Assembly (NCBI RefSeq): GCF_029350945.1
Contig: NZ_JARKMS010000001.1
Span: 2,375-66,374 of the forward strand
Length of the DNA stretch: 64,000 nucleotides
Direction of reading: 5' to 3'
DNA from: Maribacter huludaoensis
GTDB lineage: Bacteria; Bacteroidota; Bacteroidia; Flavobacteriales; Flavobacteriaceae
Position 1 is the stretch's first letter. Each line of letters begins with the position of its first letter. The notes under the pieces are model-generated. The model saw only the letters and a program-made list of their open reading frames with translations. It was not told the DNA's origin and searched no databases. Positions 5,681 to 44,722 of the stretch are shown piece after piece. The translations under genes were made by a program, and so were the position numbers.

Positions 5681-5691
5681 GATTTATAATT

Positions 5692-7149: not shown

Positions 7150-7184
7150 CCTATCAATAAACTTAAACGAACAACAAATTCTTT

Positions 7185-9997: not shown

Positions 9998-10055
9998 ATT
10001 TAATTTGTAATATTGTTATTCTCTCAAATTCAACATAATTTACTCATTTCCAATC

Positions 10056-19354: not shown

Positions 19355-19600
19355 TTGGAAACTACTGTTGCAGATTTAAAGCGAGGCCAGAAGGGAATTA
19401 TAAAAGAATTCACTCAAGACTTATTGCCGATCAAGCTACTTGAAATGGGCTGTCTGCCTGGTAACGAAGTAGAATTGGTACAAGTAGCACCGTTAAAAGA
19501 TCCAATTTATATTAATGTCAACGGATCACATATTGCCATTAGAAGAGAAATGGCCTTACATATAGCACTTGATATTATAGAAGACAATGCTGTAGTATGA
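19355..19600 (+). CDS. feoA: FeoA, ferrous iron transport accessory protein
   Basis: This 81-residue SH3-like cytoplasmic protein partners FeoB. The family pattern is intact: LKRGQKGIIKEF, LLEMGCLPGNEVELVQVAPLKDPIYI and SHIAIRREMA. The start is TTG at 19355; no in-frame ATG gives a plausible N-terminus, and METTVADLKRGQ is a normal FeoA start. An out-of-frame ATG at 19339 opens a 34-codon frame overlapping the TTG start. The 3' end overlaps feoB by four bases (ATGA), so the pair is translationally coupled. Confidence 0.92.
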   Translation: METTVADLKRGQKGIIKEFTQDLLPIKLLEMGCLPGNEVELVQVAPLKDPIYINVNGSHIAIRREMALHIALDIIEDNAVV

Positions 19601-26400: not shown

Positions 26401-27063
26401 CTATTCTTCATCTACAATTTCCAAGAATAAATTTGTTGCTATTTGCTTAGAAATACTTATGGACCCTGATCTTGTTGAAATAGTTACGGAACCATCAAAC
26501 TCCTCAATTTCCAATATTTTAAAAGTATCGCCCAAAGCGATTTTATTCTTGTCCAAAAATTTTAAAAATGCCGCCGAAGAATCATTGACCCCAACACAAA
26601 CCCCCTGACTACCAACCGGCAATTCACTTATCAATTTTTTAACGGATTTGGTAAACACACCATCCTTGTTAGGTATTGGATCACCGTGAGGATCAACCTT
26701 AGGATATCCCAAATGCGCATCTAATTTATCTATTAAAGTATCACTTTTAATATGTTCCAGTTGCTCTGCCACAACATGGACCTCGTCCCAAGAAAAATTC
26801 AACTTATCTACCAAAAACACTTCCCATAGGCGATGTTTTCTGATTATAGAAAGCGCAACCAACCTCCCTTTCTCCGAAAGTGAGACACCCTGGTACTTTT
26901 TATAGTTGACAAGAGACTTTTCAGAAAGCTTCTTCACCATATCCGTAACAGACGATGGCTTCGTTTTCATCTGCTCTGCAATGGCATTGGTAGCCACAGA
27001 TTTACTATTAAAATCGCTTAAGTGATAGATTGTTTTTATGTAATCTTCTTCTGATAACGTCAT
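26401..27063 (-). CDS. DtxR/MntR-family metal-dependent repressor
   Basis: From the ATG at 27063 the protein has 220 residues. It has an N-terminal winged helix (EEDYIKTIYHLSDFNSKSVATNAIAEQMKTKPSSVTDMVKKLSEKSLV), a dimerisation/metal-binding domain (HRLWEVFLVDKLNFSWDEVHVVAEQLEHI) and a C-terminal FeoA/SH3-like domain from about residue 150. A seven-codon longer frame exists, but MTLSEEDYIKTIYHL is the normal family start. It probably represses its own ZIP operon and the divergent receptor when metal is sufficient. Confidence 0.93.
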   Translation of the reverse strand: MTLSEEDYIKTIYHLSDFNSKSVATNAIAEQMKTKPSSVTDMVKKLSEKSLVNYKKYQGVSLSEKGRLVALSIIRKHRLWEVFLVDKLNFSWDEVHVVAEQLEHIKSDTLIDKLDAHLGYPKVDPHGDPIPNKDGVFTKSVKKLISELPVGSQGVCVGVNDSSAAFLKFLDKNKIALGDTFKILEIEEFDGSVTISTRSGSISISKQIATNLFLEIVDEE

Positions 27064-27081
27064 TTGCAAACAATAATAACA

Positions 27082-27110
27082 CAAAAATACATTTTTATAC
27101 GTAAAAACAA
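27082..27110 (-). promoter_or_regulatory. Promoter of the DtxR-ZIP operon
   Basis: On the minus strand TTG (27110-27108), 18 bases, then TATTTTTG (27089-27082). The chosen ATG at 27063 lies 18 bases after the element. Confidence 0.68.
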
Positions 27111-27115
27111 TTTTT

Positions 27116-27141
27116 TAGTTTTGTCTAAAATTTATTTTAGA
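27116..27141 (+). promoter_or_regulatory. Receptor promoter with overlapping palindromic operator
   Basis: A -7 match TAGTTTTG (27116-27123) is followed immediately by the perfect palindrome TCTAAAA-TTTA-TTTTAGA (27124-27141), whose last base is the A of the receptor start codon. Its position over the expected transcription start suits a metal-dependent repressor site; the adjacent DtxR-type protein is the obvious candidate. Confidence 0.7.
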
Positions 27142-29417
27142 TGGTTAAAATTTTATTTTTTGCCTACACTATTCTTTATTTCGGCATGCTAAATGCGCAA
27201 AATTCTGAGATATCTGGCACAATATCATCTAACGGTGTGCCTGAAGCATATGTGAACATTTATTTAAAAGGTACACAAATTGGTACCGCTTCAGATGAAA
27301 ATGGTAAGTATTCACTTAAAAATGTTCCCTCTGGCAAATACACCCTCATTGCCTCCAATATTGGTTTTCAGAAATTTTACCAAATACTTACAATTACAGA
27401 AGGCCAGGATAAAATAATTGATATTAATTTAAAACCCTCTATAGAATCTTTGGACGAAATGGTCGTTACCGGAACTTTAAAACCTGTAAGTAGATTAGAG
27501 AGCCCGGTACCAGTAGAAGTTTATAAACCTACTTTTTTCAAGAAAAACCCAACGGCAAGTATTTTTGAAGCCCTGCAAAACGTTAACGGAGTTAGGCCAC
27601 AAATTAATTGTAACGTTTGTAATACGGGCGATATTCATATCAATGGACTGGAAGGTCCGTATACATTGGTATTGATAGATGGTATGCCCATTGTAAGTGG
27701 TTTGGGAACCGTGTACGGCTTATCTGGAATACCCAACTCTCTTATTGAACAAATTGAAGTAGTCAAAGGTCCTGCTTCTACACTATATGGTAGTGAAGCC
27801 GTTGGCGGACTCATTAACATCATCACCAAAAACAATTTGACAGCTCCTAAATTTTTTGCCGATAGTTTTGTGACCGATTGGGGTGAATTTAATCTAGATG
27901 TAGGGACAAAATTCAATGTAGGTAAAAAAGCAAATGTGCTTTTAGGCGCCAATTACTTCAAGTACGACAACCCTATTGATAATAATGGAGATAATTTTAC
28001 AGACCTAACCTTACAAGATAGAATTTCAGTTTTTCAGAAATGGAACTTCACAAGAAAAAACTCACGCATCTTTTCTTTGGCAGGTCGCTTTTTTTACGAA
28101 GATCGGTGGGGCGGAGAAATGCAATGGACACCGGAATTTAGAGGCGGAGACGAAGTATATGGCGAAAGTATATACACCCGAAGATGGGAAGTATTAGGGA
28201 AATATGAATTACCGATTGAAGAACAGATGATGCTGTCTTTCTCCTATAATGACCACAAGCAGAATTCGGTTTATGGTGATGTTCCTTACTTGGCAGATCA
28301 ACGAATTGGGTTTACCCAATTAACATGGTATAAAACTATAGGAAAACACAGCTTATTAGTGGGTTCTGCCTTACGCTATAATTACTATGACGACAGCACT
28401 CCCGCTACATTTAGTACAGAGGGGAATGAGCCAGATGAAGTATTAATACCCAGTTTATTTATTCAAGATGAAGTAGCGTTCAATAAAAAACATTCTTTAC
28501 TTCTTGGAGGAAGATATGATTACGACAGCCGCCATGGAAACATATTTACACCCAGAGCGGCATACAGGTTCAAGTTTACTGATAATGATATCATTCGCTT
28601 AAATGCCGGTACCGGTTTTAGGGTAGTGAATCTATTTACAGAAGATCACGCAGCGTTAACCGGATCAAGAGATGTTATTATTGCAGAAGAACTGAAACCC
28701 GAACGTTCATTTAATGTCAACCTAAATTATTTAAAGAAAATTTATGGTGATAACGGTACTTTCGTTGGTTTGGATGCCTCTTTATTTTACACAAATTTCC
28801 AAAATGTAATTATTCCTGATTATGACACCAATCCTAATCAGATTATATATGATAATCTAAACGGCACCTCAATTTCAAAAGGGATAAGTGCCAACGTAGA
28901 CGTAGCTTTCTACAACGGTTTAAAACTGATGATAGGCGGTACCATACAAGATGTCAGTAATACGGAAGACGGCGTAAAGGAAAGACAGATTCTTACAGAA
29001 AGTTATTCAGCAAACTGGAGTGTTAGCTATGATATCCGTACCTGGGACCTAACTATTGATTATACCGGAAATTTGTATGGACCTATGCGACTACCTACCT
29101 TAGGCGACAACGACCCTAGAAGTGATTTTTCTCCGGCATGGAGTATTCAAAATATACAATTATCTTATGATGGAATAGAAAATCTTGAATTCTACGGAGG
29201 TGTAAAAAATCTGTTAGATTGGACACCTAATAGAGGAAATCCGTTCATTATTGCCCGCGCAAACGATCCATTTGATAAAGAAGTTACCTTTGATGCCAAT
29301 GGCAATGCCGTTGCCACACCAAACAACCCAAATGCATTAACTTTTGACCCATCTTATGTTTATGGACCTAACCAAGGCATACGATCATTTTTTGGAGTAC
29401 GTTACACCTTGAATTAA
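27141..29417 (+). CDS. TonB-dependent receptor, probably metal or metal-chelate uptake
   Basis: The 758-residue protein has a signal peptide (to about MLNAQ, residue 20), a carboxypeptidase-regulatory-like domain (~24-108) and a plug (~120-230). The plug contains an unusual NCNVCNTGDIHINGLEGPYTLVLIDGMP with two cysteines. A beta-barrel follows, ending GIRSFFGVRYTLN. Receptors with this cysteine pair next to ZIP and DtxR genes are plausible outer-membrane partners of divalent-metal uptake. The start codon overlaps the palindrome described at 27124-27141, and the leader would be only about ten bases. Substrate is inference from context. Confidence 0.9.
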   Translation: MVKILFFAYTILYFGMLNAQNSEISGTISSNGVPEAYVNIYLKGTQIGTASDENGKYSLKNVPSGKYTLIASNIGFQKFYQILTITEGQDKIIDINLKPSIESLDEMVVTGTLKPVSRLESPVPVEVYKPTFFKKNPTASIFEALQNVNGVRPQINCNVCNTGDIHINGLEGPYTLVLIDGMPIVSGLGTVYGLSGIPNSLIEQIEVVKGPASTLYGSEAVGGLINIITKNNLTAPKFFADSFVTDWGEFNLDVGTKFNVGKKANVLLGANYFKYDNPIDNNGDNFTDLTLQDRISVFQKWNFTRKNSRIFSLAGRFFYEDRWGGEMQWTPEFRGGDEVYGESIYTRRWEVLGKYELPIEEQMMLSFSYNDHKQNSVYGDVPYLADQRIGFTQLTWYKTIGKHSLLVGSALRYNYYDDSTPATFSTEGNEPDEVLIPSLFIQDEVAFNKKHSLLLGGRYDYDSRHGNIFTPRAAYRFKFTDNDIIRLNAGTGFRVVNLFTEDHAALTGSRDVIIAEELKPERSFNVNLNYLKKIYGDNGTFVGLDASLFYTNFQNVIIPDYDTNPNQIIYDNLNGTSISKGISANVDVAFYNGLKLMIGGTIQDVSNTEDGVKERQILTESYSANWSVSYDIRTWDLTIDYTGNLYGPMRLPTLGDNDPRSDFSPAWSIQNIQLSYDGIENLEFYGGVKNLLDWTPNRGNPFIIARANDPFDKEVTFDANGNAVATPNNPNALTFDPSYVYGPNQGIRSFFGVRYTLN

Positions 29418-31750: not shown

Positions 31751-32767
31751 TTATAAAGAAGCACGTTTAATTAACCTAGAAGGTATAATTACCTGAGTAG
31801 TACTCTCATTTTTAATATGTTTTGCAGCCAGCTTTGCCATTTCATTAAAATCCGTAGAAATAGTAGTAATACCTCCAAAAACAATCTCTTTAGAAACATT
31901 ATCGTTTTGGGAAAGAATACCAATATCTTCACCAATACTTAATTTTTTTCGCACGGCATCACGTAAAATATGCCATAAAATAGTATCGCCTAAGGCAAAA
32001 TAAAGATTGCCTTTGGCGGCAGATCCTATGGTATAGTTGTTCTTCACCATTCCGTTAACGGAATGTTCTTTTAAAAATCTTTCAAAGGTATTTTTGATAC
32101 TTATAGGGGAAAAATCACTTTCCTCATTAAAATAAAGTATAATTTTAGAATACTTTTTTATTTCCGGAAGTAGCTGTACCAATGAAGAGTAGATTACATT
32201 TTCAAATTCTTGAGAAATATATGAAAAAGACTTTCCTAGATTTAAATAACGATCTACCACCAATAATTTTTTAGCTTCAATATTTTGCAATAACTGGGTC
32301 ACCTTTTCATGCTGTATGGGTGCAATTACATACATACCATATTTACCGTTAATATTGGTGAGTATTGTTTCAAAAACGGTAAGATTATTATGGTGAAAAA
32401 AAACATCGATTTGAAATCGTTTACCCATTTCTTTTCTAAATGTTTTGTAAAATTCCTCTTGGTAACTTTGAAAAGCGAACAATAACAAAGCCATTCTTTT
32501 GGTGATATTCGTAGCCTGACTTATAACAAAATACCCCTTTAATTGTCTAGACTCAATTAAGCCTCTGTTCTTTAATTCTTCATAAGCCTTAAAGATTGTT
32601 TTTCTAGCATATCCAATCTCCTCAACCATAATGTTTATAGAGGGTAGTTGATCACCTACCAGTAATTCACCATCTTCAATAGATTCAATGACACCTTGAA
32701 CCAATTGCTCGTGTTTTGTAAGATTGTTGTTGTGGGTCAGGTTTAAAATTTTACTAATAACCGCCAT
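31751..32767 (-). CDS. GntR-family regulator with LacI/PBP-like effector domain
   Basis: The 338-residue protein combines an N-terminal GntR winged helix (~15-80: HEQLVQGVIESIEDGELLVGDQLPSINIMVEEIGYARKTIFKAYEELKNRGLIES) with a ~250-residue domain resembling the periplasmic-binding-type effector domain of LacI regulators (GMYVIAPIQHEKVTQLL ... EDIGILSQNDNVSKEIVFGGITTISTDFNEMAKLAAKHI). It stands divergent to the SusC gene across a 356-base gap holding a palindrome, so it probably controls the SusC/SusD locus in response to a small ligand. Confidence 0.88.
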   Translation of the reverse strand: MAVISKILNLTHNNNLTKHEQLVQGVIESIEDGELLVGDQLPSINIMVEEIGYARKTIFKAYEELKNRGLIESRQLKGYFVISQATNITKRMALLLFAFQSYQEEFYKTFRKEMGKRFQIDVFFHHNNLTVFETILTNINGKYGMYVIAPIQHEKVTQLLQNIEAKKLLVVDRYLNLGKSFSYISQEFENVIYSSLVQLLPEIKKYSKIILYFNEESDFSPISIKNTFERFLKEHSVNGMVKNNYTIGSAAKGNLYFALGDTILWHILRDAVRKKLSIGEDIGILSQNDNVSKEIVFGGITTISTDFNEMAKLAAKHIKNESTTQVIIPSRLIKRASL

Positions 32768-33123
32768 AAATTCTAGTCAAATTTGCAGCCGTCAATATAC
32801 AATTTAATAAAAGACATCAAAATTTTGTCAAGGATATATAGTGCTATTGCACATGGCAATTCTACCAAAAAGCAAGGAAAATAAGCTTTTTTGAGTATTG
32901 AAGAATAATTAACAAAATAAACTAATGGTTGTATTTTAATAATAATTTATGATCTAAATCATAATTTGAAAAAATAAGCTACCAAAATTTATTAAATTAA
33001 CATTTATTTATATATTTGTTTGCAGTAGCATAGTGTATCATAGTCTTTTTATCTCAAAAGCTTCCTGAAGAGATTATAATATCCGTGCCAGCTTAATAAC
33101 TAACAACTGTAAGAACTAACTTT
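32768..33123 (+). promoter_or_regulatory. Control region of the SusC/SusD locus
   Basis: No gene found. The palindrome TTATGAT-CTAA-ATCATAA (32947-32964) has perfect 7-bp arms and lies ~50 bases upstream of a -7 match TATATTTG (33011-33018), which leaves a ~100-base leader before the SusC ATG. The palindrome is a candidate site for the divergent GntR-type regulator. Confidence 0.6.
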
Positions 33124-36100
33124 ATGAATTATCAAAAAAACTTTCCTAAGTTTTCCATGATTCGAAATCATGCGAGCTTAACGATGATTTTATTTTTTAG
33201 TGGATTTCTTTTTATGAACCTCCACGCACAGACGACCGTGTCCGGAACTGTTACTTCGGCATCGGACAACATGCCGTTACCAGGTGTTTCGGTCATTGAT
33301 GCAAACAACCCAACGACTGGGGTACAAGCAGATTTTGATGGTAACTTTACCATTACCGTAGATGATGGTAGTACCAGTTTACGATTTAGCTACATTGGTT
33401 TTAAGGCAGTGGTGGTACCGGTAAACAACCAAAGTACCATTAATGTATCACTTGAAGAAGATGTTGCCAACCTAGACGAAGTTGTAGTCGTTGGTTACGG
33501 TACCCAGAAAAAGGCAACGGTAACAGGTGCGGTAACAGCTGTACAAGGACCTGTACTTGAAAGTTCTCCGGCCATTAGTGTATCTAACTCCCTTGCAGGT
33601 AGACTACCAGGTGTTGTAATTGTTCAGACCAGTGGAGAGCCTGGTAATGACGAATCTAACATTAGCATTCGTGGAACGAACACATTGGGTAACAACCAGC
33701 CATTAATTGTAATTGACGGTATACCAGATAGAGATGGTGGCATAGGTCGTATTAACCCAGATGATATTGCAAATATATCTGTACTAAAAGATGCCTCTGC
33801 AGCTATTTATGGGGCTAGAGCGGCAAATGGTGCAATTATCGTTACCACTAAAACTGGTAAGCCCGGTAAAATGCAGATCAATTACAAAGCAGATTTTGGT
33901 ATAACCAGACCAACAAGAACTCCAGAAATGGCTAGTGCTGTAGAGTACCAAACTATTATGAACGAATTGGCGATTTTTAATAGTAACATTCCATCTTCTC
34001 AGTGGGGAGCGGCAAATACGGCTTTTCAAAACTCTGGAAGTTATACCATTCCAGGAAGCGACCCGGCAGAAACCGTAAACGCTGCATTTAGTCCAGAAAC
34101 GATTAATAACCATAGAACGAATGCCGATCCATGGTTATACCCAGATACGGATTGGTTTGGCGCTACTTTTCAAGATTGGGCAGAACAACAGAGACACAAC
34201 TTATCCATAAGCGGAGGTAATGAAGATTTAAAGTACTATGCCTCTATAGGTTATGCAGACCAAGGTGCTATCTATAAAAATTCGGCGAACAGATACCAAC
34301 AATATAATTTTAGAATCAATACCGATGCTAGAATTAATGACTATCTATCCACTAAATTAAGTATGGGATATAGAAAGGAAGATAGAACCTTTCCTACTGA
34401 AGGTGCAGGTGCTATTTTTAGAATGTTAATGAGAGGTAGACCTAACGAACCTGCAATATGGCCAAATGGCTTACCAGGACCTGATATTGAAAACGGGCAA
34501 CAGCCAGTGGTCGTTACTACCAATGCTACAGGTTATGACAAACAACCAACCGATTATTTACAATTTACCGGTTCCGTAGACATTACAAACCCGTGGATAG
34601 AAGGTTTGAAAATGACTTTATTGGCTGGTGTAGATCAAAGTCAATTACGTAGAAAATTATGGCAGACACCTTGGACACTTTACTCTCTAGACCGCGCAAA
34701 CTATATTGCTACCGGGGTACCGGAACTTAGCGGTTCTATACGTTCCAACTTTACGGATGCAAGATTATTACAATCATCTAACAACGTTTTAAATACCAAC
34801 CTTACCGGTTTGTTAAGTTATGACAAAACAATAGGTGATAATCACACTATTAATTTATTGGCAGGTGTAACCCGGGAAAATTTTCAAGGAGAATTTTTCT
34901 CGGCTTTTAGAAGAAACTATCTTTCTACAGCAGTTGACCAGCTTGGTGTTGGTGGCGAAATTGCACAGGAAACCGATGGTTTTGGGTATAACCGAACACG
35001 TTTGGGTTACTATGGTCGTGCTCAATACAACTTTAAGGAAAAGTATTTAGCTGAGTTTATTTGGAGATATGATGGTTCATATATATTCCCAGGTAATGAT
35101 CGTTTTGGATTCTTCCCAGGTTTATTGGTTGGTTGGAACATTAATAATGAAGATTGGTTCAACGTAGATTCTATAAGCTACTTAAAGTTAAGAGGATCTT
35201 ACGGTGAAATGGGTAATGATCAAGTTTCTTTTGACACAAACGGTGATGGCGAAATTACTGATGACGAATTACAGGAATATGCTTACCAATCTATTTATGA
35301 ATTTGGTCAATATCCAATTAACGGACAAGTACAGACAACATTGTTCGAAAATCTTTTAGCCAACCCAAGTTTTACCTGGGAGCGTGCCAAAAACTATAAT
35401 ATTGGTTTAGATGGTATTGTACTAGATGGTAAACTAAGTTTCACTTTAGAATACTTCTTGAACAAGCGTGATCAAATACTTATTCAGAAAACTGGTTCTA
35501 CACCAGGATCTTCTGGTATTTCTACACTACTACCACCTGTGAATGCAGGAAAAGTAAACAATGAAGGTTTTGAATTCGCATTAAACTATTTTGGTGGAAA
35601 TGTAGAAGGATTTAAATGGGATGTTGGTGTTAATGGAGGTTATGCACAGAACACAGTTGAGTTCTTAGACGAAATTCCTGGTGCACCAAGTTACCAATTA
35701 CAAGAAGGAAAGCCTATTGGTTCCTATTTAGTATATGAATCTGACGGTGTCTTTATTGATCAGGCTGCCATAGACTCAAATCCACTGGATTACAGTGCCG
35801 TTAAGCCTACATTAGAGCCAGGAGACATGAAGTTCAAAGATATTAATGGTGATGGTGCCATTAATGATTTAGATCAAGTTAGGTTAAAGAACAGTATTAA
35901 TCCTAATTTCAACTTTGGTGTTACTTTCAATGCTTCTTATAAGAATTTTGACCTTTCGGTATTATTGCAGGGAGCAACAGGTGCTAAATTATTCATCCAG
36001 ACAGAATCTGGTGATATTGGTAACTTCTTAAAATACAGCTTCGATAATAGATGGAGTCCTGATAATCCAAGTAGCGTTCATCCAAGACTTGCAAGTCGTG

Positions 36101-36375
36101 GAGACACCTATTATACCGGCGGTGATTATGGAAACAACACCTATAATCTTTTTAGTAAAGATTACCTAAGGCTTAAAAATGTTCAATTGGCATATAACTT
36201 CCCTTCAGAAATGATTGAGCAATTTGGCTTATCTAATTTTAAAGTATATATGAGCGGTCTAAACTTGGCTACATGGGCAGCTCAAGATATATATGATCCT
36301 GAATCGACTAGTAATAATGGTCAGTTTTATCCACAACAGACTATTATCAATACAGGTTTTAGTTTAACATTTTAA
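33124..36375 (+). CDS. SusC-type TonB-dependent outer-membrane transporter
   Basis: The 1083-residue protein has a signal peptide (to about NLHAQ, residue 36) and a carboxypeptidase-regulatory-like domain (~38-115). The TonB-box region DEVVVVGYGTQKKATVTGAV follows, then a plug with the SusC signature DASAAIYGARAANGAIIVTT and a long barrel. It forms the outer-membrane channel capped by the SusD protein encoded 9 bases downstream. A canonical EF-hand loop (D704-E715, DTNGDGEITDDE) and a second Ca-type loop (906-917, DINGDGAINDLD) occur in barrel loops. The cargo is unknown. Confidence 0.95.
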   Translation: MNYQKNFPKFSMIRNHASLTMILFFSGFLFMNLHAQTTVSGTVTSASDNMPLPGVSVIDANNPTTGVQADFDGNFTITVDDGSTSLRFSYIGFKAVVVPVNNQSTINVSLEEDVANLDEVVVVGYGTQKKATVTGAVTAVQGPVLESSPAISVSNSLAGRLPGVVIVQTSGEPGNDESNISIRGTNTLGNNQPLIVIDGIPDRDGGIGRINPDDIANISVLKDASAAIYGARAANGAIIVTTKTGKPGKMQINYKADFGITRPTRTPEMASAVEYQTIMNELAIFNSNIPSSQWGAANTAFQNSGSYTIPGSDPAETVNAAFSPETINNHRTNADPWLYPDTDWFGATFQDWAEQQRHNLSISGGNEDLKYYASIGYADQGAIYKNSANRYQQYNFRINTDARINDYLSTKLSMGYRKEDRTFPTEGAGAIFRMLMRGRPNEPAIWPNGLPGPDIENGQQPVVVTTNATGYDKQPTDYLQFTGSVDITNPWIEGLKMTLLAGVDQSQLRRKLWQTPWTLYSLDRANYIATGVPELSGSIRSNFTDARLLQSSNNVLNTNLTGLLSYDKTIGDNHTINLLAGVTRENFQGEFFSAFRRNYLSTAVDQLGVGGEIAQETDGFGYNRTRLGYYGRAQYNFKEKYLAEFIWRYDGSYIFPGNDRFGFFPGLLVGWNINNEDWFNVDSISYLKLRGSYGEMGNDQVSFDTNGDGEITDDELQEYAYQSIYEFGQYPINGQVQTTLFENLLANPSFTWERAKNYNIGLDGIVLDGKLSFTLEYFLNKRDQILIQKTGSTPGSSGISTLLPPVNAGKVNNEGFEFALNYFGGNVEGFKWDVGVNGGYAQNTVEFLDEIPGAPSYQLQEGKPIGSYLVYESDGVFIDQAAIDSNPLDYSAVKPTLEPGDMKFKDINGDGAINDLDQVRLKNSINPNFNFGVTFNASYKNFDLSVLLQGATGAKLFIQTESGDIGNFLKYSFDNRWSPDNPSSVHPRLASRGDTYYTGGDYGNNTYNLFSKDYLRLKNVQLAYNFPSEMIEQFGLSNFKVYMSGLNLATWAAQDIYDPESTSNNGQFYPQQTIINTGFSLTF

Positions 36376-36384
36376 AAAAAAATC

Positions 36385-38262
36385 ATGAAAAAAGAAAAAT
36401 TAATACTTTTAGGATTACTGGCCCTAGCGCTGGTTCCTATTTCGTGTAATGAAGATTTCTTAGAAACGCAGCCATTAGATTCAATTTCGGCAGATGCTAC
36501 TTGGGCAGATGGGGCGTTGGCACAAGCATTTGTATTTAATGTGTACGGATCCCTCGGCTATGGAGGATTTGAAGAAGAAGGTCTGTCTTCATTAACGGAC
36601 GAAGCAATGTTTACACACTCCGGTAGAGGAGTCAATGTTATTACAGAAGGTTCTCTTTCCCCATCAGGTACGGGAAATGTGAATATCATTCCACAATGGA
36701 ACGAGTTATATTCAGCCATTAGAAAAGCGAATATAGCCATACAAGAATTGCCTAACTCAACCTTTGATGACCAGACTCTAAAGGATAGGTTACTAGGAGA
36801 GGCTCATTTTTTAAGAGCTTATTACTATCATCAATTAATGCGTTACTATGGTGGAGCCCCATTAATTGACACGCCATATGGACTAGATGATGACTATACT
36901 ATAGCTAGAGGAACCTATGCCGAAAACGTAACCTTTGTGACCGATGATCTAGACAGGGCTATATCATTGTTAGATGGTAAAGAAGTTACTCCAGGTAGAG
37001 CATCTATGCTAGGTGCTATGGGATTAAAATCTAGAGTGCTGACATATGCAGCGAGTGATTTACGCGACGGACCTACTGCGAGCGCTAAATCGGCAACATT
37101 GGGTGCATATTCAAATTTAGAACTGGTTGCATATACTTCTGGGGACAGAGATGCAAGATGGAACGCTGCAAAAACTGCTGCCAAGGCTGTTTTAGACGCA
37201 ACTACCGGTTATAAACTAGATTTAACGGAACCTGCAAGTGCAGAAGAAGCAACACAGACCTACATCTCTATTGCTATGGGAGGTGGAAGTGCCGTTGGTG
37301 ATGCTGCTGCAAGGTCTGAACTATTGTTTGAAAGAACACACTCACCTTTGTTTACTCAAGAAAGTAACTGGCCTTTAGGTGGTATTCACCAAGGAATAAA
37401 CAACGGACCTAATGGCTACCACAACTGGGCAGGGAACACACCTATTCAACAATTGGTAGACGACTATCAAATGATGGACGGTTCGGATTTCGACTGGAGC
37501 AATGAAGAACACGCAGCTGCTCCATATGAGAATAGAGATCCAAGATTGGCCGCTACCATTCTATATGACGGCGCACCTTGGAAACCTAGACCGGATGATG
37601 TTGCTTCAATTGATCCTTATGATGAAATACAGACAGGAACATACGCAGACGGTAGCGGTGGAATAATACCTGGTGTGGACATGAGAGATTCGCCCATTGA
37701 AAACTGGAACGGAAGTAGAACTGGATATTATGTAAGAAAGTTTATTGATCCAGACCCATCTTTGGTAGATAACCAATCTAGTGCCCAAGTAGTACCTTGG
37801 CCGTTTATCAGATATACTGAAATCGTATTGAACTATGTGGAAGCATCTATTGCACTAGGCGATGAAGGCGAAGCTAGAAATTGGTTAAATAAAATTCGTT
37901 TTAGAGCCGGTATGCCCGCAATTTCATCTTCAGGTAACGAGCTTTTAGAAGATTACATCAACGAAAGAAGAGTTGAGTTAGCTTATGAAGAGCATAGATA
38001 CCATGACGCAAGAAGGTGGATGATTGCAGATCAAACACTTGGTAGAGGTATTAAGGTAATGAAAGTTAGTGCAACTTTAAAAGCAGGTGCTACACCAAGG
38101 ACACCATATAAATATGATCCAACAGTGTATGATTACACCTATACGGTAGTTGACAATAATGATAACGAAACCAGAACTTGGGACGATAAAATGTATTTCA
38201 TGCCTATTAGTAGAGATGAAATCAATAGAAATAACCTTTTGATTCAGAATCCAGGTTATTAG
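36385..38262 (+). CDS. SusD/RagB-type surface lipoprotein
   Basis: The 625-residue protein has a lipoprotein signal with the lipidated cysteine in VPISCNEDFLETQP. It shows the SusD family pattern: N-terminal LDSISADATWADGALAQAFVFNVYGSLG, helical AEAHFLRAYYYHQLMRYYGGAPL, and C-terminal YINERRVELAYEEHRYHDARRWMIADQTLGRGIKVM. Acidic residues after the cysteine fit surface export in Bacteroidota. It should sit as a lid on the SusC barrel and bind the substrate. It ends 23 bases before a strong terminator hairpin. Confidence 0.95.
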   Translation: MKKEKLILLGLLALALVPISCNEDFLETQPLDSISADATWADGALAQAFVFNVYGSLGYGGFEEEGLSSLTDEAMFTHSGRGVNVITEGSLSPSGTGNVNIIPQWNELYSAIRKANIAIQELPNSTFDDQTLKDRLLGEAHFLRAYYYHQLMRYYGGAPLIDTPYGLDDDYTIARGTYAENVTFVTDDLDRAISLLDGKEVTPGRASMLGAMGLKSRVLTYAASDLRDGPTASAKSATLGAYSNLELVAYTSGDRDARWNAAKTAAKAVLDATTGYKLDLTEPASAEEATQTYISIAMGGGSAVGDAAARSELLFERTHSPLFTQESNWPLGGIHQGINNGPNGYHNWAGNTPIQQLVDDYQMMDGSDFDWSNEEHAAAPYENRDPRLAATILYDGAPWKPRPDDVASIDPYDEIQTGTYADGSGGIIPGVDMRDSPIENWNGSRTGYYVRKFIDPDPSLVDNQSSAQVVPWPFIRYTEIVLNYVEASIALGDEGEARNWLNKIRFRAGMPAISSSGNELLEDYINERRVELAYEEHRYHDARRWMIADQTLGRGIKVMKVSATLKAGATPRTPYKYDPTVYDYTYTVVDNNDNETRTWDDKMYFMPISRDEINRNNLLIQNPGY

Positions 38263-38285
38263 TTTAGTTTAAATTGAGTTAAATT

Positions 38286-38320
38286 AAAGATCTATTCCTT
38301 TTTGGAATAGATCTTTTACT
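38286..38320 (+). terminator. Strong hairpin terminator inside the SusC/SusD gene cluster
   Basis: A perfect 13-bp stem (AAAGATCTATTCC at 38286-38298 with GGAATAGATCTTT at 38304-38316) with a TTTTT loop is followed by TTACTTTT. The next ATG is at 38330, only 13 bases later, so downstream genes have no separate promoter here and must be read through. Confidence 0.88.
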
Positions 38321-38329
38321 TTTAAACAA

Positions 38330-41300
38330 ATGACAAAAAATCAAATCTTCTATATCCTTTTAATTTTCCTAATACACCAAAGCTGTACCGAGAAAGTTAA
38401 AAAAGATGAAACCCCTTCAACAATAAATAAAATTGAAGAACCTACCCTATTCACTCTTTTGTCAGAAGACGAAACGAAAGTAACTTTTCAGAACACTTTA
38501 AAAGAAGGATTAAATGCCAACGTATTGGTATATGAATACCTTTATAATGGTGGTGGTATTGCTACTGGAGACTTCAATAATGACGGTCTTCAAGATTTGT
38601 ATTTCACTTCTAACATGGGTGAAAATAAATTCTATTTAAACCAAGGTGATTTTACATTTAAAGATGTTACTAATACTTCTAAAGTTAGCGGTAGACCTGG
38701 ACCTTGGAAAACAGGCATTACCTCTGCTGACGTAAACGGAGATGGCAAACTGGACCTCTATCTTTGCTATTCAGGTGCCTTACCAGATGTAAAGCGTAAA
38801 AATCAATTGTTCATCAATCAAGGAAACGATGCCAATAACGTACCTATTTTTAAAGAACAAGCGGAAGAATATGGTTTGGCCAGCGCTGCTTTTAGTAATC
38901 AAGGATATTTTTTTGATTATGATAAAGATGGTGATTTGGATATGCTTTTACTAAACCATAATCCAAAGTCTTTACCCGTTTTAAACGAAGTAAGCACTAA
39001 AAAACTTCTCAATAAAGACGACCCTCTTCAAGGTATACGTCTCTTTGAGCAAAAAAGAAATACGTTTGTTGATGTAACTGTAAATGCCGGCATCAGTGGC
39101 TCTGCACTTACCTACGGTTTAGGCATAGGTATAAGCGATATCAATAATGATGGTTGGCAAGATTTCTATATTTCCAATGACTATACAATTCCTGACTACC
39201 TGTACATCAATAATAAAAACGGAACGTTTACTGACCAATTAGGGGAACAAATGGGGCATACAAGCCATTTTTCTATGGGTAACAATATTGCAGATATCAA
39301 TAATGATGGCCTACAGGATATTTTCACCTTAGACATGCTGCCTAAAGATAATAAGCGTCAAAAACTATTATTGTCACCTGATAATTATGAAAAATTCGAT
39401 TTAAATATTAGAAGTGGGTTTCACCATCAATACATGAGGAACATGCTTCAGTTGAACAATGGCGATAACACCTTTAGTGAAATTGGACAACTAGCCGGTA
39501 TTTCAAACACAGATTGGAGTTGGGCTCCCCTCTTTGCAGATTTTGATAATGACGGTTTTAAAGATTTATTTATTTCCAACGGATATTATAGGGATTATAC
39601 CAATTTAGATTTTATCAATTACATGGATAGTTATGTACAATCTAAAGGTAGGCTACAACGACAAGATGTTTTGGAATTGATAAAAGAAATGCCAGCTTCA
39701 AACCTGACCAACTTCTATTACAGCAATAATGATGGACTAAATTTTAGCGATAAAACAGACAAAGCAGGTGTTGACCAACCAGCTAATAGTAACGGTTCAA
39801 TTTATGTTGACCTGGATAATGATGGTGATTTGGACCTAGTGGTGAACAATATAAACAAACCGGCTTTCATCTATAGAAATGATACTAAAAAAGAAAGCAC
39901 CCATCAAATAAGTATTCAATTAAAAGGTGCTGATAAAAATACCAACGGTATTGGATCAAAAGTAAGTGTATATAGCAAAGACAAAACTCAAGTTGTAGAA
40001 CAAATGCCTACACAAGGTTATCTTTCAACAGTTTCATCTATTTTACATTTTGGGTTTAATGATGTTAGCATTATAGATTCCGTAACGGTTCAATGGAATT
40101 CAGGTAAAACTGAAACCTTAAGGGAAGTTGCCACTAATCAATTATTGGTTTTAAAAGAAAGTAATGCTACCAAAACCGCTATCTTAAAAGATAAATCTAA
40201 ACCTTTATTTCGTAAAGTACCTAATGCAATTAATTACACGCATCCATCATCTTCAATGAATGACTTTAAAAGACAATCATTATTATTAAAACAATTATCA
40301 CATTACGGTCCGCCCATGGCTAAAGGCGACATTAATAATGATGGACTAGAAGATATTGTTATTGGAGGCGGTATTGGTCAAGCTACTGCCGTGTATATTC
40401 AGAATTCACAAAAAATGTTTAATAACAGAACAAGTGCTGATCTTGAACAGGATCAACAATATTCAGATACGGACATATCACTGATCGATATTAACAAGGA
40501 CGGAAATTTAGATGCATATATTGCTAGTGGTGGTTATCATAAACTGGCACCGAACGATCCATTACTACAGGACAGAGTTTATTTAGGTGATGGGAAAGGA
40601 AATTTTAAAAAATATGAAAATGCCTTACCAAAAATGTTAACCAGTACCGGGTCCATAACATTCTCTGATATTAACAATGATTCATATATGGATATCTTTG
40701 TGGGCGGCTATAGTATACCGGGGCGTTTTCCTGAAATACCAAGAAGCTATATTCTCATCAATGATGGTACAGGAAAATTTACCGACCATACCGAAACAAT
40801 ACAACCGGAACTGAAAAATGTAGGAATGGTTACCGATGCCGTATGGGCAGATATGGATGGTGACCAACAAAATGATCTGATTGTAGTTGGGGAGTGGATG
40901 CCTATCTCTATTTATTTGAACAAAAGCGGGAAGTTGATAAATGAAACGCATAATTTTTTCAACGAATCTTTATCCGGTTTGTGGACAAGCCTTCATGTTA
41001 CCGACCTAAATAAAGATAGCAAACCAGATATTATAGCAGGTAATATTGGTACAAATACGCAATTTAAACTAAGTATTGAAAGACCTGCCGAGCTGTATTA
41101 TTCCGATTTTGACCATAACGGTTCAATAGACCCTATTTTAAACTTTTATATAGATGGCAAGAGCTATCCGTATGTGACCAGGGACGAGTTACTAGGTCAA
41201 CTTTCTGGAAAACGCCAAATATTTAATAGCTATGAAAAGTATGCCGTAGCAACCATAAATGATATTCTCGATGAAACTGAATTACAAAAAGCAAAAAAAT

Positions 41301-41671
41301 TGGCTATTACGCATCAAAAAACAACAGTTTTAATGAGCAATAAAAGTGATAGATATAAAAACATATCATTGCCAATACAAGCACAATACTCCCCTATTTC
41401 CAGTATTGTTAGTTCAGATTTTAACAACGATGGTATTATGGATTTACTACTTTTAGGAAACAATGATTTTTATAAATTAAGAATTGGAAAATTTGATGCT
41501 AATTATGGTACTGTGCTTCTGGGCAAGGCTGATGGCAACTTTAAGTACCTACCACAGACACAATCAGGATTATCCATAAAAGGTAGTGATACCCATGCAC
41601 TACTCATAAATAACGAACTTATACTTACAAGTTACGGTGCAGCAACCGAAACTTATCAACTATTAAAATAG
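38330..41671 (+). CDS. FG-GAP/VCBS repeat lipoprotein with ASPIC/UnbV domain (CRTAC1-like)
   Basis: The 1113-residue protein starts with a lipoprotein signal (C19 in HQSCTEK). It contains two blocks of FG-GAP/VCBS repeats with many Ca-binding loops of the form DxNxDGxxDLxx (e.g. DFNNDGLQDLYF, DVNGDGKLDLYL, DYDKDGDLDMLL). These are separated by an ASPIC/UnbV domain at ~523-610 (LKGADKNTNGIGSKVSVY...SVTVQWNSGKTETL). The second repeat block (~640-1113) lacks another ASPIC domain. These beta-propellers are extracellular and Ca-dependent, perhaps binding ligand beside SusD. Role unknown. Confidence 0.9.
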   Translation: MTKNQIFYILLIFLIHQSCTEKVKKDETPSTINKIEEPTLFTLLSEDETKVTFQNTLKEGLNANVLVYEYLYNGGGIATGDFNNDGLQDLYFTSNMGENKFYLNQGDFTFKDVTNTSKVSGRPGPWKTGITSADVNGDGKLDLYLCYSGALPDVKRKNQLFINQGNDANNVPIFKEQAEEYGLASAAFSNQGYFFDYDKDGDLDMLLLNHNPKSLPVLNEVSTKKLLNKDDPLQGIRLFEQKRNTFVDVTVNAGISGSALTYGLGIGISDINNDGWQDFYISNDYTIPDYLYINNKNGTFTDQLGEQMGHTSHFSMGNNIADINNDGLQDIFTLDMLPKDNKRQKLLLSPDNYEKFDLNIRSGFHHQYMRNMLQLNNGDNTFSEIGQLAGISNTDWSWAPLFADFDNDGFKDLFISNGYYRDYTNLDFINYMDSYVQSKGRLQRQDVLELIKEMPASNLTNFYYSNNDGLNFSDKTDKAGVDQPANSNGSIYVDLDNDGDLDLVVNNINKPAFIYRNDTKKESTHQISIQLKGADKNTNGIGSKVSVYSKDKTQVVEQMPTQGYLSTVSSILHFGFNDVSIIDSVTVQWNSGKTETLREVATNQLLVLKESNATKTAILKDKSKPLFRKVPNAINYTHPSSSMNDFKRQSLLLKQLSHYGPPMAKGDINNDGLEDIVIGGGIGQATAVYIQNSQKMFNNRTSADLEQDQQYSDTDISLIDINKDGNLDAYIASGGYHKLAPNDPLLQDRVYLGDGKGNFKKYENALPKMLTSTGSITFSDINNDSYMDIFVGGYSIPGRFPEIPRSYILINDGTGKFTDHTETIQPELKNVGMVTDAVWADMDGDQQNDLIVVGEWMPISIYLNKSGKLINETHNFFNESLSGLWTSLHVTDLNKDSKPDIIAGNIGTNTQFKLSIERPAELYYSDFDHNGSIDPILNFYIDGKSYPYVTRDELLGQLSGKRQIFNSYEKYAVATINDILDETELQKAKKLAITHQKTTVLMSNKSDRYKNISLPIQAQYSPISSIVSSDFNNDGIMDLLLLGNNDFYKLRIGKFDANYGTVLLGKADGNFKYLPQTQSGLSIKGSDTHALLINNELILTSYGAATETYQLLK

Positions 41672-41685
41672 CTTTTTAATTAACC

Positions 41686-43044
41686 ATGACTTTTTTCAGT
41701 AAATCTAAATACATAATAACCTTTGTAGCTCTTATTGTACTTTTTACATCATGTACTACCAAAGAACAGCCCAAATTAAGCGAAAAGGAAGTTGCCTTAG
41801 AGTGGGCCAACATGACTTTGTTCATTACCAGATATACACCGTCAAATTCACCCACTTTTGCTTCTAGGGCATTTGGTTATACGGGCTTAACTATGTACGA
41901 AACCACTGTACAAGGTTTTCCTGATTATAAATCAATGGGCGGGCAGTTAAACGTCTTTGATCAACTCCCAATAGCGGATGCCTCTAAAGAATATAATTGG
42001 GTACTGGCACTAAATGCCGGACAATCGGAAATTCTAAAAAACATCTACGTACAAACCTCCGAAGAGAATATTCAAAAAATAGATTCATTAGAACAAGTAA
42101 TTTACAATCAATTTACAACGGATGTTGATCAACAAACAGCAGAACGTTCCGTGGCATTCGGTAAAAAAGTAGCGCAAATCATTTTTGAGTGGTCAAAAAC
42201 CGATGGCGGACATAGAGGATATTTGAAAAATTTTGATAAGACCATGGTGCATCCGGACAGACCTGGCTCTTGGAAACCACCCCTATTTGCACAATCTTTT
42301 AGTCATCACCCATTACACCCACACTGGGGTGAAAATAGAACTTTTGCATCTAAAAATAAAGCGATTGAAGACCCAAAAATGATTCCGTATGACACCACGC
42401 CTGGTTCAGCGTACTATAAACAATTTGAAAATGTATATCTCAAGGATTTAGAATTGACCCAATTAGAAAAAGAAGCAGCCATTTGGTGGGGAGATGACCC
42501 AGATGTAAGCTTTACACCACCAGGACATTCTTATTATTTTGCAACCTTGGCCGTAGAAGGACATGACATATCGCTTATTGAAACTACACAGGTCTATGCA
42601 CAGGTAGGCATGGCCGTATCGGATGCGTTCGTGAACTGCTGGAAATGGAAATATCAATTTTTTACCGAGAGACCAAATACTTTTATACCAAAATATATAG
42701 ATGAAGAATGGGAGTCTTTTTGGCCTGACCCACCATTTCCTTCCTTCCCTTCCGGGCATGCAATACAAGCGGCTGCCGCAGCAACCGTTTTGGAGCATAA
42801 TTTTGGAAAGGAATTTACTTTTACGGATAGAGCTCATGAAGGCAGGGAACGTGATGAATTAAAAGAAACCGATTTTGTTATTAGATCTTTTGATAGCTTT
42901 TGGGATGCCGCTCAAGAAACGGCAGACTCAAGATTTTATGGCGGTATACATACGCAATTAGATAACGAAGTAGGATTAGAAAAAGGCATTGAAATAGCAA
43001 AAAACGTTTACGGCCTAGAATGGAAGAACACAAATGAAAAATAG
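41686..43044 (+). CDS. Vanadium-dependent haloperoxidase/PAP2-superfamily lipoprotein
   Basis: The 452-residue protein has a lipoprotein signal (C23 in FTSCTTK). The whole vanadate/phosphate site of the superfamily is present: K322 and R329 in KYQFFTERP, SGH at 356-358 in FPSGHAIQAAA, and R416 and H422 in RFYGGIH. Spacings K-7-R and R-6-H equal those of known vanadium haloperoxidases. It could oxidise halides with H2O2 or act as an acid phosphatase; sequence alone cannot tell. It lies between two CRTAC1-like genes, overlapping the second by 11 bases. Confidence 0.9.
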   Translation: MTFFSKSKYIITFVALIVLFTSCTTKEQPKLSEKEVALEWANMTLFITRYTPSNSPTFASRAFGYTGLTMYETTVQGFPDYKSMGGQLNVFDQLPIADASKEYNWVLALNAGQSEILKNIYVQTSEENIQKIDSLEQVIYNQFTTDVDQQTAERSVAFGKKVAQIIFEWSKTDGGHRGYLKNFDKTMVHPDRPGSWKPPLFAQSFSHHPLHPHWGENRTFASKNKAIEDPKMIPYDTTPGSAYYKQFENVYLKDLELTQLEKEAAIWWGDDPDVSFTPPGHSYYFATLAVEGHDISLIETTQVYAQVGMAVSDAFVNCWKWKYQFFTERPNTFIPKYIDEEWESFWPDPPFPSFPSGHAIQAAAAATVLEHNFGKEFTFTDRAHEGRERDELKETDFVIRSFDSFWDAAQETADSRFYGGIHTQLDNEVGLEKGIEIAKNVYGLEWKNTNEK

Positions 43045-44722
43045 ATTATCATCACTTACTTTAACACTAATATTATTTGTTACCTGCGGCAAGTTTGCCA
43101 ATGCGCAACAAAAATTTGTAGATGTTACCGCCGAAGCTGGTTTGGACCACCAATACGAAGTATACGAAGGAACATTTGGCGGCGGAGTTACCGTTTTTGA
43201 TTTCAATAAAGACGGATTTGAAGATCTGTATATTACTAGCGGTATAAAATCTGACAGACTTTACCTTAATAATGGTAATGGTACGTTTACGGATGTTTTT
43301 AAAGGATCTGGTCTAGAAGTAACCAATGAGTATGTAACCCAAGGTGTTGTAAGTGCAGATATTAATAAAGATGGATACAGGGATCTGTTCATTACAACCA
43401 TTACTACTACAGATGGCAAAAATGTTATACCAAGAGCTAAAAATTTACTCTTCTTAAATAATGGAGATGCTACATTTAAAGATGTCACTAATGAATACGG
43501 CTTAGAGGACTTAAACTCTTTCAGTACAGGACCAAGTTTTGGAGATATTGACGCAGACGGATATCCTGATTTATTTGTTGGTAATTATTTTCAAGAATTT
43601 ACCGGTAAACTGGGCATTATAAAAGACGCAACCATAGTAAGTGCCAACCAAACAGCTAGAAGCTACTTACTAAAAAATGAAGGTGGCAAAAGTTTTAAAA
43701 ATGTATATGATGAATATGGTTTAGGTCATAAAGGTTTTGGCTTTGGTGGGGTTTTCACGGATTATGATAATGACCAAGATCAAGATTTATTGGTAAACCA
43801 GGATTTTGGATATAAGGCCGTCCCTAATTTTCTTTATCAAAATGAATATCCAGACGATCATTTTAAGGATGTTAGTGAACAAACCGAAATGGATTTAAAG
43901 ATAAACGCAATGGGTGCTGCTGTTGGTGATTACAACGGTGACGGGTGGATGGATTATTACATTACAAACATCAAGTTCAACATGCTTATGGAAAACCAAG
44001 GTAATGGCAAGCCGTTTGTAGATAAAGCGAAAGAATTAGGTACATATAACCTAGCCATTAGTTGGGGCGCCAATTTTGCAGACTTTGATCATGATGAAGA
44101 TTTAGATCTGTTTGTTTCGAACGGAGATTTGAACCCCAATTGCACGCCTATGGGCAATTTCTATTTTGAGAATAATGATAACACATACACCGAAAAAGGA
44201 AGAGAACTAACTATTAACGATTACGGAATAGGTAGAGGATCGGTAATTTTTGACATGGATAATGATGGTGATATGGATTTGTTGGTGGTAAATCAACAAC
44301 CGATCTTAAATTACCCAATCCCATCTACCACCCGCCTGTTTAGAAATGACATTGCCAATGGTAATTGGTTAAAAATAGCATTAAAAGGTATTGAATCTGA
44401 AGCTAATGGTATTGGCTCTAGAGTTACGATAGTTGCTGATGGAAAGAGAACTATTAGGGAAATAGATGGCGGTGGATCTAGTCACTTATCACAAAACTCT
44501 GTTATTGCGCACTTCGGTTTGGGAACGAATAAAAAAGTAGATTCCGTCATAGTTAATTGGACAGGTGGCAATACTCAAGTATTGACCAATATAGAGGCAA
44601 ACCAACAACTAGAAATTATTGAGGTCAACAGCCCCAAAAAACAAGCCTTTACCTTATGGTACATTGTGGGGGGCTCCATCCTTCTCGTTTTATTTTACAT
44701 TATATATAAAAAGAGAAGATAG
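43034..44722 (+). CDS. CRTAC1-type FG-GAP protein with ASPIC/UnbV domain and C-terminal membrane helix
   Basis: The 562-residue protein has a signal peptide (to about KFANAQ, residue 25). At least seven FG-GAP/VCBS Ca loops follow (DFNKDGFEDLYI, DINKDGYRDLFI, DIDADGYPDLFV, DYNGDGWMDYYI, DMDNDGDMDLLV and others). An ASPIC/UnbV domain occupies ~442-527, and one C-terminal helix (~537-557) is followed by KKRR. The helix plus basic tail would anchor it in the inner membrane facing the periplasm, unless it is processed. The start overlaps the haloperoxidase-like gene by 11 bases, indicating coupled translation. Confidence 0.9.
   Translation: MKNRLSSLTLTLILFVTCGKFANAQQKFVDVTAEAGLDHQYEVYEGTFGGGVTVFDFNKDGFEDLYITSGIKSDRLYLNNGNGTFTDVFKGSGLEVTNEYVTQGVVSADINKDGYRDLFITTITTTDGKNVIPRAKNLLFLNNGDATFKDVTNEYGLEDLNSFSTGPSFGDIDADGYPDLFVGNYFQEFTGKLGIIKDATIVSANQTARSYLLKNEGGKSFKNVYDEYGLGHKGFGFGGVFTDYDNDQDQDLLVNQDFGYKAVPNFLYQNEYPDDHFKDVSEQTEMDLKINAMGAAVGDYNGDGWMDYYITNIKFNMLMENQGNGKPFVDKAKELGTYNLAISWGANFADFDHDEDLDLFVSNGDLNPNCTPMGNFYFENNDNTYTEKGRELTINDYGIGRGSVIFDMDNDGDMDLLVVNQQPILNYPIPSTTRLFRNDIANGNWLKIALKGIESEANGIGSRVTIVADGKRTIREIDGGGSSHLSQNSVIAHFGLGTNKKVDSVIVNWTGGNTQVLTNIEANQQLEIIEVNSPKKQAFTLWYIVGGSILLVLFYIIYKKRR

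Follow-up and report, generated by a model that had tools for sequence, protein, structure and literature searches.

The stretch of DNA analysed here (the window, 64,000 nucleotides) covers positions 2375 to 66374 of contig C7 in a 4.24-Mb genome (G000). The nearest named kin is Maribacter, the haloperoxidase-like protein described below being 98% identical to that of a Maribacter metagenome-assembled genome (MAG). A block of five genes was identified at positions 33124-44722 of the window, encoding a SusC/SusD pair (SusCD), a long FG-GAP/ASPIC protein (CRTL), a lipoprotein with the predicted fold of vanadium haloperoxidases (VHPO) and a shorter FG-GAP/ASPIC protein (CRTS). The gene of a GntR-type sensor-regulator lies divergently upstream. 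All six open reading frames (ORFs) had been described in an earlier note on this DNA, and each was recovered at the same coordinates. The five genes of the block are as follows:

33124-36375, + strand: SusC, a TonB-dependent outer-membrane importer of 1083 amino acids (aa) (TIGR04056, Plug, CarbopepD_reg_2)
36385-38262, + strand: SusD-type lipoprotein of 625 aa (PF07980, 186.7 bits; PF14322; Cys motif CNEDFLE)
38330-41671, + strand: CRTL, a probable lipoprotein of 1113 aa (FG-GAP_3, 242.3 bits; UnbV_ASPIC, 71.5 bits)
41686-43044, + strand: VHPO, a vanadium-haloperoxidase-fold lipoprotein of 452 aa (PAP2, 37.6 bits against a cut-off of 27.2; Cys23)
43034-44722, + strand: CRTS, an FG-GAP/ASPIC protein of 562 aa (FG-GAP_3, 131.6 bits; ASPIC, 71.9 bits)

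SusC scores 861.6 bits with TIGR04056 (curated cut-off 368.25) and the SusD gene lies beside it on the same strand, the arrangement that defines a SusC/SusD importer. Spacing is tight throughout, with 9 bp between SusC and SusD, 67 bp between SusD and CRTL (a hairpin lies inside this gap), 14 bp between CRTL and VHPO, and an overlap of 11 bp between VHPO and CRTS. As the earlier note had stated, no glycoside hydrolase or sulfatase was found among the nine genes scanned (the six ORFs and the neighbouring lycopene cyclase, prenyl synthase and TetR genes). Nor was a carbohydrate-active enzyme or sulfatase noticed among the flank families that recur across clades beside VHPOs of type A (at least 58% identity to the window VHPO), these flanks having been surveyed at the level of recurring families. 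The carbohydrate-active enzyme or sulfatase by which a polysaccharide utilisation locus is recognised is thus missing from the genes scanned.

Sequence and structure prediction together support VHPO as an enzyme of the vanadium haloperoxidase fold with intact vanadate residues. The vanadate-site residues K322, R329, S356, G357, H358, R416 and H422, which the earlier note had called complete, are all present, and none of them varies among the 66 sequences that have letters at these positions (68 aligned, window included). Over 45 diverse VHPOs the invariant positions include these seven together with Cys23, W319 and F351; all 64 sequences that cover position 23 have the Cys. The exact residues KRSGHRH occur in 59 of 62 CRT-linked VHPOs against 31 of 40 unlinked ones. 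In a sequence search VHPO matched the solved Zobellia iodoperoxidase ZgVIPO1 (PDB accession no. 4CIT; E 5.4e-46), and its structural model (predicted local distance difference test, pLDDT, 90.3) gave Foldseek matches to 4usz (E 2e-23) and 4cit (E 3e-23), both entries of ZgVIPO1. The match to 4usz (E 2.1e-23; template-modelling (TM) scores 0.77/0.84) is full length and extends beyond the PAP2 core. The PAP2 domain is above its cut-off and carries the three motifs of this family, namely K-x6-RP, PSGH and SR-x5-H-x3-D. Acid phosphatases (targets of ~211-232 aa) match only part of VHPO, with a TM score by query length of ~0.3, and the compact ~220-aa phosphatase fold is not that of VHPO; its identification as a simple PAP2 phosphatase was rejected on this fold evidence.

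ZgVIPO1 shares with the window VHPO the full-length predicted fold, the seven vanadate-site residues and a gene position next to CRTL, but belongs to a separate clade (~30% identity) and is accompanied by tandem CRTLs rather than by one CRTL and one membrane-anchored CRTS. Type A enzymes possess P-SGH-A and D426, as does the fungal chloroperoxidase aligned with them, whereas the ZgVIPO1 lineage possesses T-SGH-S and an A. The vanadate residues align one-to-one with those of the vanadium chloroperoxidase of Curvularia inaequalis (1idq/1vnc), a longer chain that is 16% identical over the fold match; the alignment also shows equivalents of what we take to be W350 and F397 of that enzyme. A 2025 study (PMC11871015) reports an influence on chloride use of the residue three positions ahead of the catalytic Lys, which is Trp in the enzyme of Ascophyllum and in others. 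Trp occupies this position in the window VHPO and equally in ZgVIPO1, so the halide choice cannot be read from it. VHPO is probably a true vanadate peroxidase.

CRTL and CRTS both combine FG-GAP repeats with an UnbV_ASPIC domain above its cut-off, as in CRTAC1/ASPIC proteins, and murine CRTAC1 (PDB accession no. 9etn), itself an FG-GAP propeller with an ASPIC domain, is the top PDB sequence match of both (E 6.2e-18 for CRTS). CRTL consists of a CRTAC1-like FG-GAP propeller, an ASPIC domain and, in addition to what CRTAC1 possesses, a second FG-GAP region behind the ASPIC domain; its model (pLDDT 89.9) has 9etn as the clear top Foldseek match (E 2.5e-25). CRTS differs from CRTAC1 in terminating in a membrane span. 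Motifs of the calcium type D-x-[DN]-x-[DNS]-G number 12 in CRTL and 5 in CRTS, and their FG-GAP loops are putative calcium-binding sites. By eye, CRTS begins with a signal sequence, and it ends with the membrane span (~44648-44707) and a KKRR tail. A C-terminal span with a basic tail was found in 62 of 62 complete CRTS copies, and a C-terminal span in 0 of 57 CRTLs; CRTS is therefore probably no free surface protein. Most simply, it would sit in the inner membrane facing the periplasm; less simply, it might be sorted to the surface. The role of surface capture proteins that the earlier note had suggested for the propellers accordingly suits CRTS less well. A crude lipobox pattern matched 53 of 64 VHPOs, 35 of 53 CRTLs, 22 of 45 SusDs and 7 of 61 CRTSs, so that the lipoprotein status of SusD and CRTL is based partly on family knowledge.

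Relatives of the block were sought by one scan of the genome contigs of 84,980 species with the window VHPO, which yielded 67 loci, all with record titles of Bacteroidota. The scan used exact peptide patterns of this protein, favouring close kin, and Flavobacteriaceae dominate. ORFs in the related loci were labelled with profiles from the window and own-genome proteins, and contig and region ends conceal some neighbours; the order count was limited to the 48 loci with at least 7 kb upstream and at least 1.8 kb downstream. The order SusC-SusD-CRTL-VHPO-CRTS, on one strand and with gaps of at most 450 bp, was found in 39 of these 48, and L058, truncated upstream, shows the exact order as a fortieth tight locus. 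By record title, these 40 loci belong to Flavobacteriaceae (including a Cytophaga sp. record with a Maribacter-type flank), Chitinophagaceae and one unplaced Bacteroidetes MAG, and the order is also present in two more families (L093, family f10; L094, family f5). Nine loci are exceptions: L052 keeps the order with a single gap of 3.9 kb, L055 has VHPO alone, and in the other seven (L038, L042, L049, L053, L054, L062 and L063) VHPO, CRTS and CRTL are retained, but CRTL or SusCD has changed position or orientation or falls outside the stretch seen. Of the 67 loci, 63 encode a CRT protein at most 9 kb from VHPO; the four without one are L040, L055, L061 and L074, two of which hold less than 6 kb of DNA.

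Between the five proteins, pairwise identities show correlations of 0.85-0.97 across 41 loci (the 40 tight ones and L052), and the order persists at lowest pairwise protein identities of 45-58%, in several families and with turnover of the flanks. Median scores in the 40 tight cassettes (SusC 1789, SusD 1108, CRTL 1518, VHPO 707 and CRTS 836 bits) are higher than those of the best own-genome paralogues (390, 223, 762, 163 and 198 bits, respectively), which marks the cassette members as orthologues and not generic neighbours; the lowest cassette SusC score, 257, is that of truncated L058 and the next lowest is 1228. These data support the five genes as a single evolutionary unit whose order is shared with distant Bacteroidota, and the cassette almost certainly exists as a functional unit. 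The earlier note had proposed one unit of SusC/SusD, a vanadate-site lipoprotein and two FG-GAP/ASPIC proteins, to be abandoned if its order were confined to this genome; the content and order were confirmed, and their retention in 39 of 48 related loci leaves the proposal standing.

The cassette has relatives in its own genome, where three VHPO genes were identified (window, C7:792722 and C9:344253). C7:792722 is 73% identical to ZgVIPO1, a closer relative of that enzyme than the window VHPO, and lies in a SusC-SusD-CRTL-CRTL-VHPO cluster with a divergent symporter (L086, G000:C7:787001-807000). The window block was thus rejected as the orthologue of ZgVIPO1, given the separate clade, the ~30% identity and this closer gene elsewhere. 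In L086 the VHPO gene is followed by that of a GyrI-like-family protein (Pfam run on the cluster member from L122) and a lipoprotein-like frame. Neither CRT nor SusCD was found in the 20-kb stretch around the third VHPO (C9:344253, 33%; L087, G000:C9:335001-355000), which lies a few genes downstream of a frame that by eye resembles an extracytoplasmic function (ECF) sigma factor. Four other PAP2 genes of this genome (open frames of 193-280 aa) are, by coordinates, not near ASPIC genes.

Further CRTL paralogues of the same genome lie beside SusCD together with a hybrid two-component regulator (L088), with a sulfatase and GH16 (L089), with sugar-acid genes (L090) or with nothing else (L091). CRTL thus looks like a general surface partner, with VHPO as the variable enzyme. 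Specificity of CRTL for VHPO was rejected in view of these paralogues and of control loci that have CRTL and no VHPO. The statement in the earlier note that this is not a normal polysaccharide locus consequently holds for the enzyme and not for the propellers, which also occur in other SusCD loci here.

A wider sample was formed by 80 further VHPO loci, the best 80 of a longer list, next by E-value after the own genome. They hold 81 VHPO genes (two share region L106); three of the loci are type A, and L095 is apparently on the same contig as L059. A CRT protein was found within 9 kb in 45 of these loci, the long CRTL in 40, and the CRTL lies directly upstream (within ~0.3 kb, same strand) in 27. 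Among 61 genomes searched for both, ASPIC proteins were identified in 11 of 11 with VHPO and 17 of 50 without (Fisher p 5e-5, relatedness ignored), and of the 19 strong VHPO genes (E ≤1e-20), 9 have an ASPIC gene at a distance of at most 10 kb, as counted by hand from coordinates. On a quick VHPO tree with 24 open forks and long branches, the CRTL label requires 14 changes against 33.6 in shuffles, so that CRTL linkage follows lineage, with several gains or losses.

Sister loci of the ZgVIPO1 type, with tandem CRTLs followed by VHPO, include the solved iodoperoxidase 4CIT and recur in the own genome. ZgVIPO1 itself groups with L151 (genome G182, 99% identical), whose gene lies directly behind tandem CRTLs. 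This type is common, being found in 128 of 299 genomes of the same family at E ≤1e-60. Nineteen such loci were chosen by hand from the 128 positive genomes, mostly for their long contigs (loci of three genomes are also among the 80); CRTL is in reach in all 19 and directly upstream of VHPO in 18 (not L179), and SusD is in reach in 17 (not L185 and L189). Scans of representatives showed xylose isomerase, a kinase that resembles xylulokinase but scores under the cut-off for it, and an SSF symporter in some of these loci, and GH65-like and trehalase genes near some related VHPOs. A third architecture, SusC-SusD-CRTL (~1190 aa)-VHPO followed by an FG-GAP protein of ~520 aa, was observed in L143, L161, L168 and L172; Pfam found no ASPIC domain in the ~520-aa proteins scanned (L143 and L172).

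Three further features of the window concern the regulation of the block:

31751-32767, - strand: GntR regulator, not core (GntR helix-turn-helix, PF00392; LacI-type periplasmic-binding-like sensor domain, PF13377)
32986-33018, + strand: conserved putative promoter block with the palindrome AATTTATTAAATT (candidate operator) and TATATTTG
38286-38316, + strand: intrinsic-terminator-like hairpin with a 13 bp stem and a T-rich tail, in the SusD-CRTL gap

The regulator scores 39.5 bits for its helix-turn-helix and 27.0 for Peripla_BP_3 (cut-off 26.5), a domain arrangement that we presume to be that of the arabinose repressor AraR. The earlier note had counted this gene in the unit. A sensor-type GntR is indeed present here, but it is lineage-specific, with homologues in 18 of the 67 related loci (many of these loci stop shortly before the SusC gene), and was rejected as a core member. 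In the region preceding SusC, an unaltered palindrome AATTTATTAAATT was found in 8 (L009-L016) of the 15 loci with a GntR gene that were examined and TATATTTG in 11 of the 15 (within the range L009-L020), all the positive loci being from Maribacter; both are missing from the four loci of other genera (L026, L029, L036 and L047). TATATTTG fits what we take to be the TAnnTTTG consensus of the Bacteroidota -7 element, and the two motifs may function as operator and promoter, respectively. A sigma-70 promoter scan performed no better than shuffles. A FecR-type gene directly precedes the cassette SusC in L024, L031, L054 and L072 (Pfam run on the L024 copy), and both SusCs scanned (L024 and L072) possess an additional N-terminal STN domain, implying that the ligand of the importer can itself act as inducer. 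In 46 of 49 related loci the 120 nt that follow SusD contain a stem of at least 9 pairs, often taking the form ATCTATCCC/GGGATAGAT in type A, with paired changes between loci by eye. Among 53 further SusD genes (three from type A loci), 49 are followed by such a hairpin, whereas random 120-mers contain one in 40 of 400 cases; the hairpin is general to SusD genes and was rejected as special to this unit. It may be an attenuator that sets SusCD above CRTL-VHPO-CRTS.

The neighbours of the block are ordinary genes, namely prenyl synthase and lycopene cyclase upstream and TetR/efflux genes downstream. They are confined to the Maribacter-type flank, whose efflux genes are common to 21-22 loci, and were rejected as parts of the block. 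A conserved sixth gene was likewise rejected, as flank clustering returned only clade-specific flanks and no further family across clades. Metal-uptake genes lie near the block (window 26401-29417 and 19597-21789), comprising an Fe-dependent repressor with a FeoA domain, a ZIP transporter (25552-26373), a TonB receptor and FeoB. At 2851-11081 the window encodes a glycerate kinase, an SSF symporter, an MGH1-like glycoside hydrolase, a TonB receptor and a divergent LacI regulator. This looks like a utilisation locus for gluco-/mannosylglycerate (a compatible solute), and no SusD was seen next to its TonB receptor.

The reading that we favour, tentatively, is that the block is an uptake unit in which SusCD is joined by a vanadate peroxidase as surface enzyme, in the place usually taken by a glycoside hydrolase, so that oxidative processing at the surface would serve import. 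The data show the gene content, the conserved order, the co-inheritance of the five genes, the intact vanadate site and the predicted VHPO and CRTAC1-like folds; from these we infer the following localisation, activity, complex and cargo. SusC and SusD would bring in the cargo across the outer membrane, and CRTL, as a surface lipoprotein with calcium-type FG-GAP propellers, would bind the substrate, dock VHPO to SusCD, or both. The VHPO lipoprotein at the cell surface would oxidise or halogenate the substrate using hydrogen peroxide (H2O2) and a halide, while CRTS, anchored by its C-terminal span and probably facing the periplasm, would receive the product or pass it on. Carbohydrate-containing organic molecules are the most likely cargo, because the regulator has a sugar-type sensor, other CRTL-SusCD loci of this genome carry sugar and polysaccharide genes, and some sister VHPO loci adjoin xylose genes, SSF symporters, GH65 or trehalase. 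The import-tied regulation seen in other cassettes (FecR before SusC in four loci, STN on the two SusCs scanned) counts in favour of this reading. The block shares with SusCD polysaccharide utilisation loci the adjacent SusC and SusD, the sensor-regulator, the downstream lipoproteins and the hairpin after SusD, but its scanned genes include no glycoside hydrolase, lyase or sulfatase and its enzyme is VHPO.

Several observations weigh against surface oxidation for uptake. NapH3, a solved VHPO homologue, has been described as a rearrangement catalyst, so the fold alone is no proof of haloperoxidase activity, and no H2O2 source recurs in the cassette flanks. Among the 80 sampled VHPO loci, 35 have no CRT within 9 kb (some being cut by contig or region ends) and SusD is in reach in only 23. 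In Zobellia-like G182, ~21 kb separate SusD from VHPO and ~11 kb separate it from the last CRTL; the unrelated genes in the interval include those of a symporter and a GH2 protein and two frames that by eye resemble DNA polymerases. Twenty control loci from other genomes, hand-chosen as long CRTL copies away from VHPO matches, show any SusC or SusD match in only 10 stretches and SusD in 7 (L193, L197, L198, L199, L201, L206 and L212); CRTL is thus no strict SusCD partner, the link being common and far from universal. Sugar genes adjoin sister architectures and single clades and do not recur beside type A. Finally, type A is rare and patchy among Bacteroidota, being identified in 4 of 394 genomes in an even draw (own genome included), where 82 hold a VHPO-family match at E ≤1e-10.

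A different purpose for the same proteins would be halogen acquisition, in which iodide or bromide is oxidised by surface VHPO and the halogen then enters through SusCD in oxidised or organically bound form, and the propellers need calcium. The solved iodoperoxidase of the sister clade, 4CIT, has propeller partners of the same kind, and Arenibacter C-21, whose genome holds at least 5 vanadium iodoperoxidase (VIPO) homologues and 39 SusD proteins, accumulates iodine in a manner requiring glucose, oxygen and calcium, glucose becoming dispensable when an H2O2-generating or iodide-oxidising system is supplied (PMC5064120). The 12 and 5 calcium-type motifs of CRTL and CRTS fit as well. Against this, identity between the window VHPO and 4CIT is only ~30%, the two fall in separate clades and the window enzyme reads P-SGH-A where the 4CIT lineage reads T-SGH-S; nor is a halide transporter among the recurrent flank genes. 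Type A is also present in genera which we take to be dwellers of freshwater, soil or hot springs. Halogen acquisition hence appears unlikely for this block. Equally speculative, and the boldest of the readings, is its extension to a halogen-driven uptake, in which surface vanadate peroxidases of Bacteroidota, that of Zobellia included, would be dedicated propeller-docked SusCD partners and would account for the iodine accumulation of marine Flavobacteriaceae, which depends on H2O2, oxygen and calcium.

VHPOs are broad oxidants, and the enzyme might serve defence or detoxification, making hypohalous acid against competitors or signals or consuming H2O2 of the host, with SusCD and the propellers only for anchoring or assembly. 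Such a role finds some support in Zobellia, whose iodoperoxidase vIPO3 is reported to be upregulated on fresh Ascophyllum nodosum relative to alginate (PMC9296495). It is doubtful here, as it leaves unexplained both the orthologous SusCD pair travelling with VHPO and the FecR/STN signalling on the importer. Slightly less probable again is a surface phosphatase, in which VHPO, with phosphate bound at its PAP2-type site, would remove the phosphate from an organophosphate and leave the remainder for import by SusCD. All three PAP2 motifs are complete, D426 included, and the structure of apo-chloroperoxidase with a phosphate intermediate (3bb0) is among the fold matches; against this stand the full-length iodoperoxidase fold and the poor acid phosphatase matches given above, the retained VHPO-type Trp and Phe (W319 and F351), and the recurrent flank families, among which no phosphate genes were noticed. 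That the block is a passively inherited neighbourhood of unrelated secreted proteins is very improbable: the complete loci are mostly from one family, so that counts are not independent, and the Maribacter-type efflux flank is also shared, by 21-22 loci, but the order holds down to 45-58% lowest identity in several families while flanks turn over, and a second VHPO lineage repeats the link to CRTL.

Within the open-licence full-text literature searched, no description of a VHPO-SusCD-CRT cassette was found, nor a paper tying VHPO or SusC to CRTAC1, or ASPIC/UnbV or FG-GAP to SusD. Searches for haloperoxidase with TonB/SusC gave no TonB among the matches listed, and the text excerpts on vanadium haloperoxidase gene clusters in Bacteroidetes contain no such locus; haloperoxidases and SusD proteins are both listed, and not linked, in PMC5064120. 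The cassette is real and conserved, and within that literature it is an undescribed SusCD variant with an enzyme of the vanadate-peroxidase type.

The crystal structure of bacterial vanadium haloperoxidases is known and, to our knowledge, they have no settled physiological role in Bacteroidota. Two separate VHPO lineages are encoded with CRTAC1-like propellers, often with SusCD, which provides a concrete set of partners to test. They also offer a bacterial context for relatives of CRTAC1, a human plasma marker whose mechanism is apparently unsettled. If the favoured reading is true, oxidative metal-peroxide chemistry can take the place of hydrolases in SusCD loci; if instead halogens are what is acquired, SusCD systems would take part in the marine iodine cycle.

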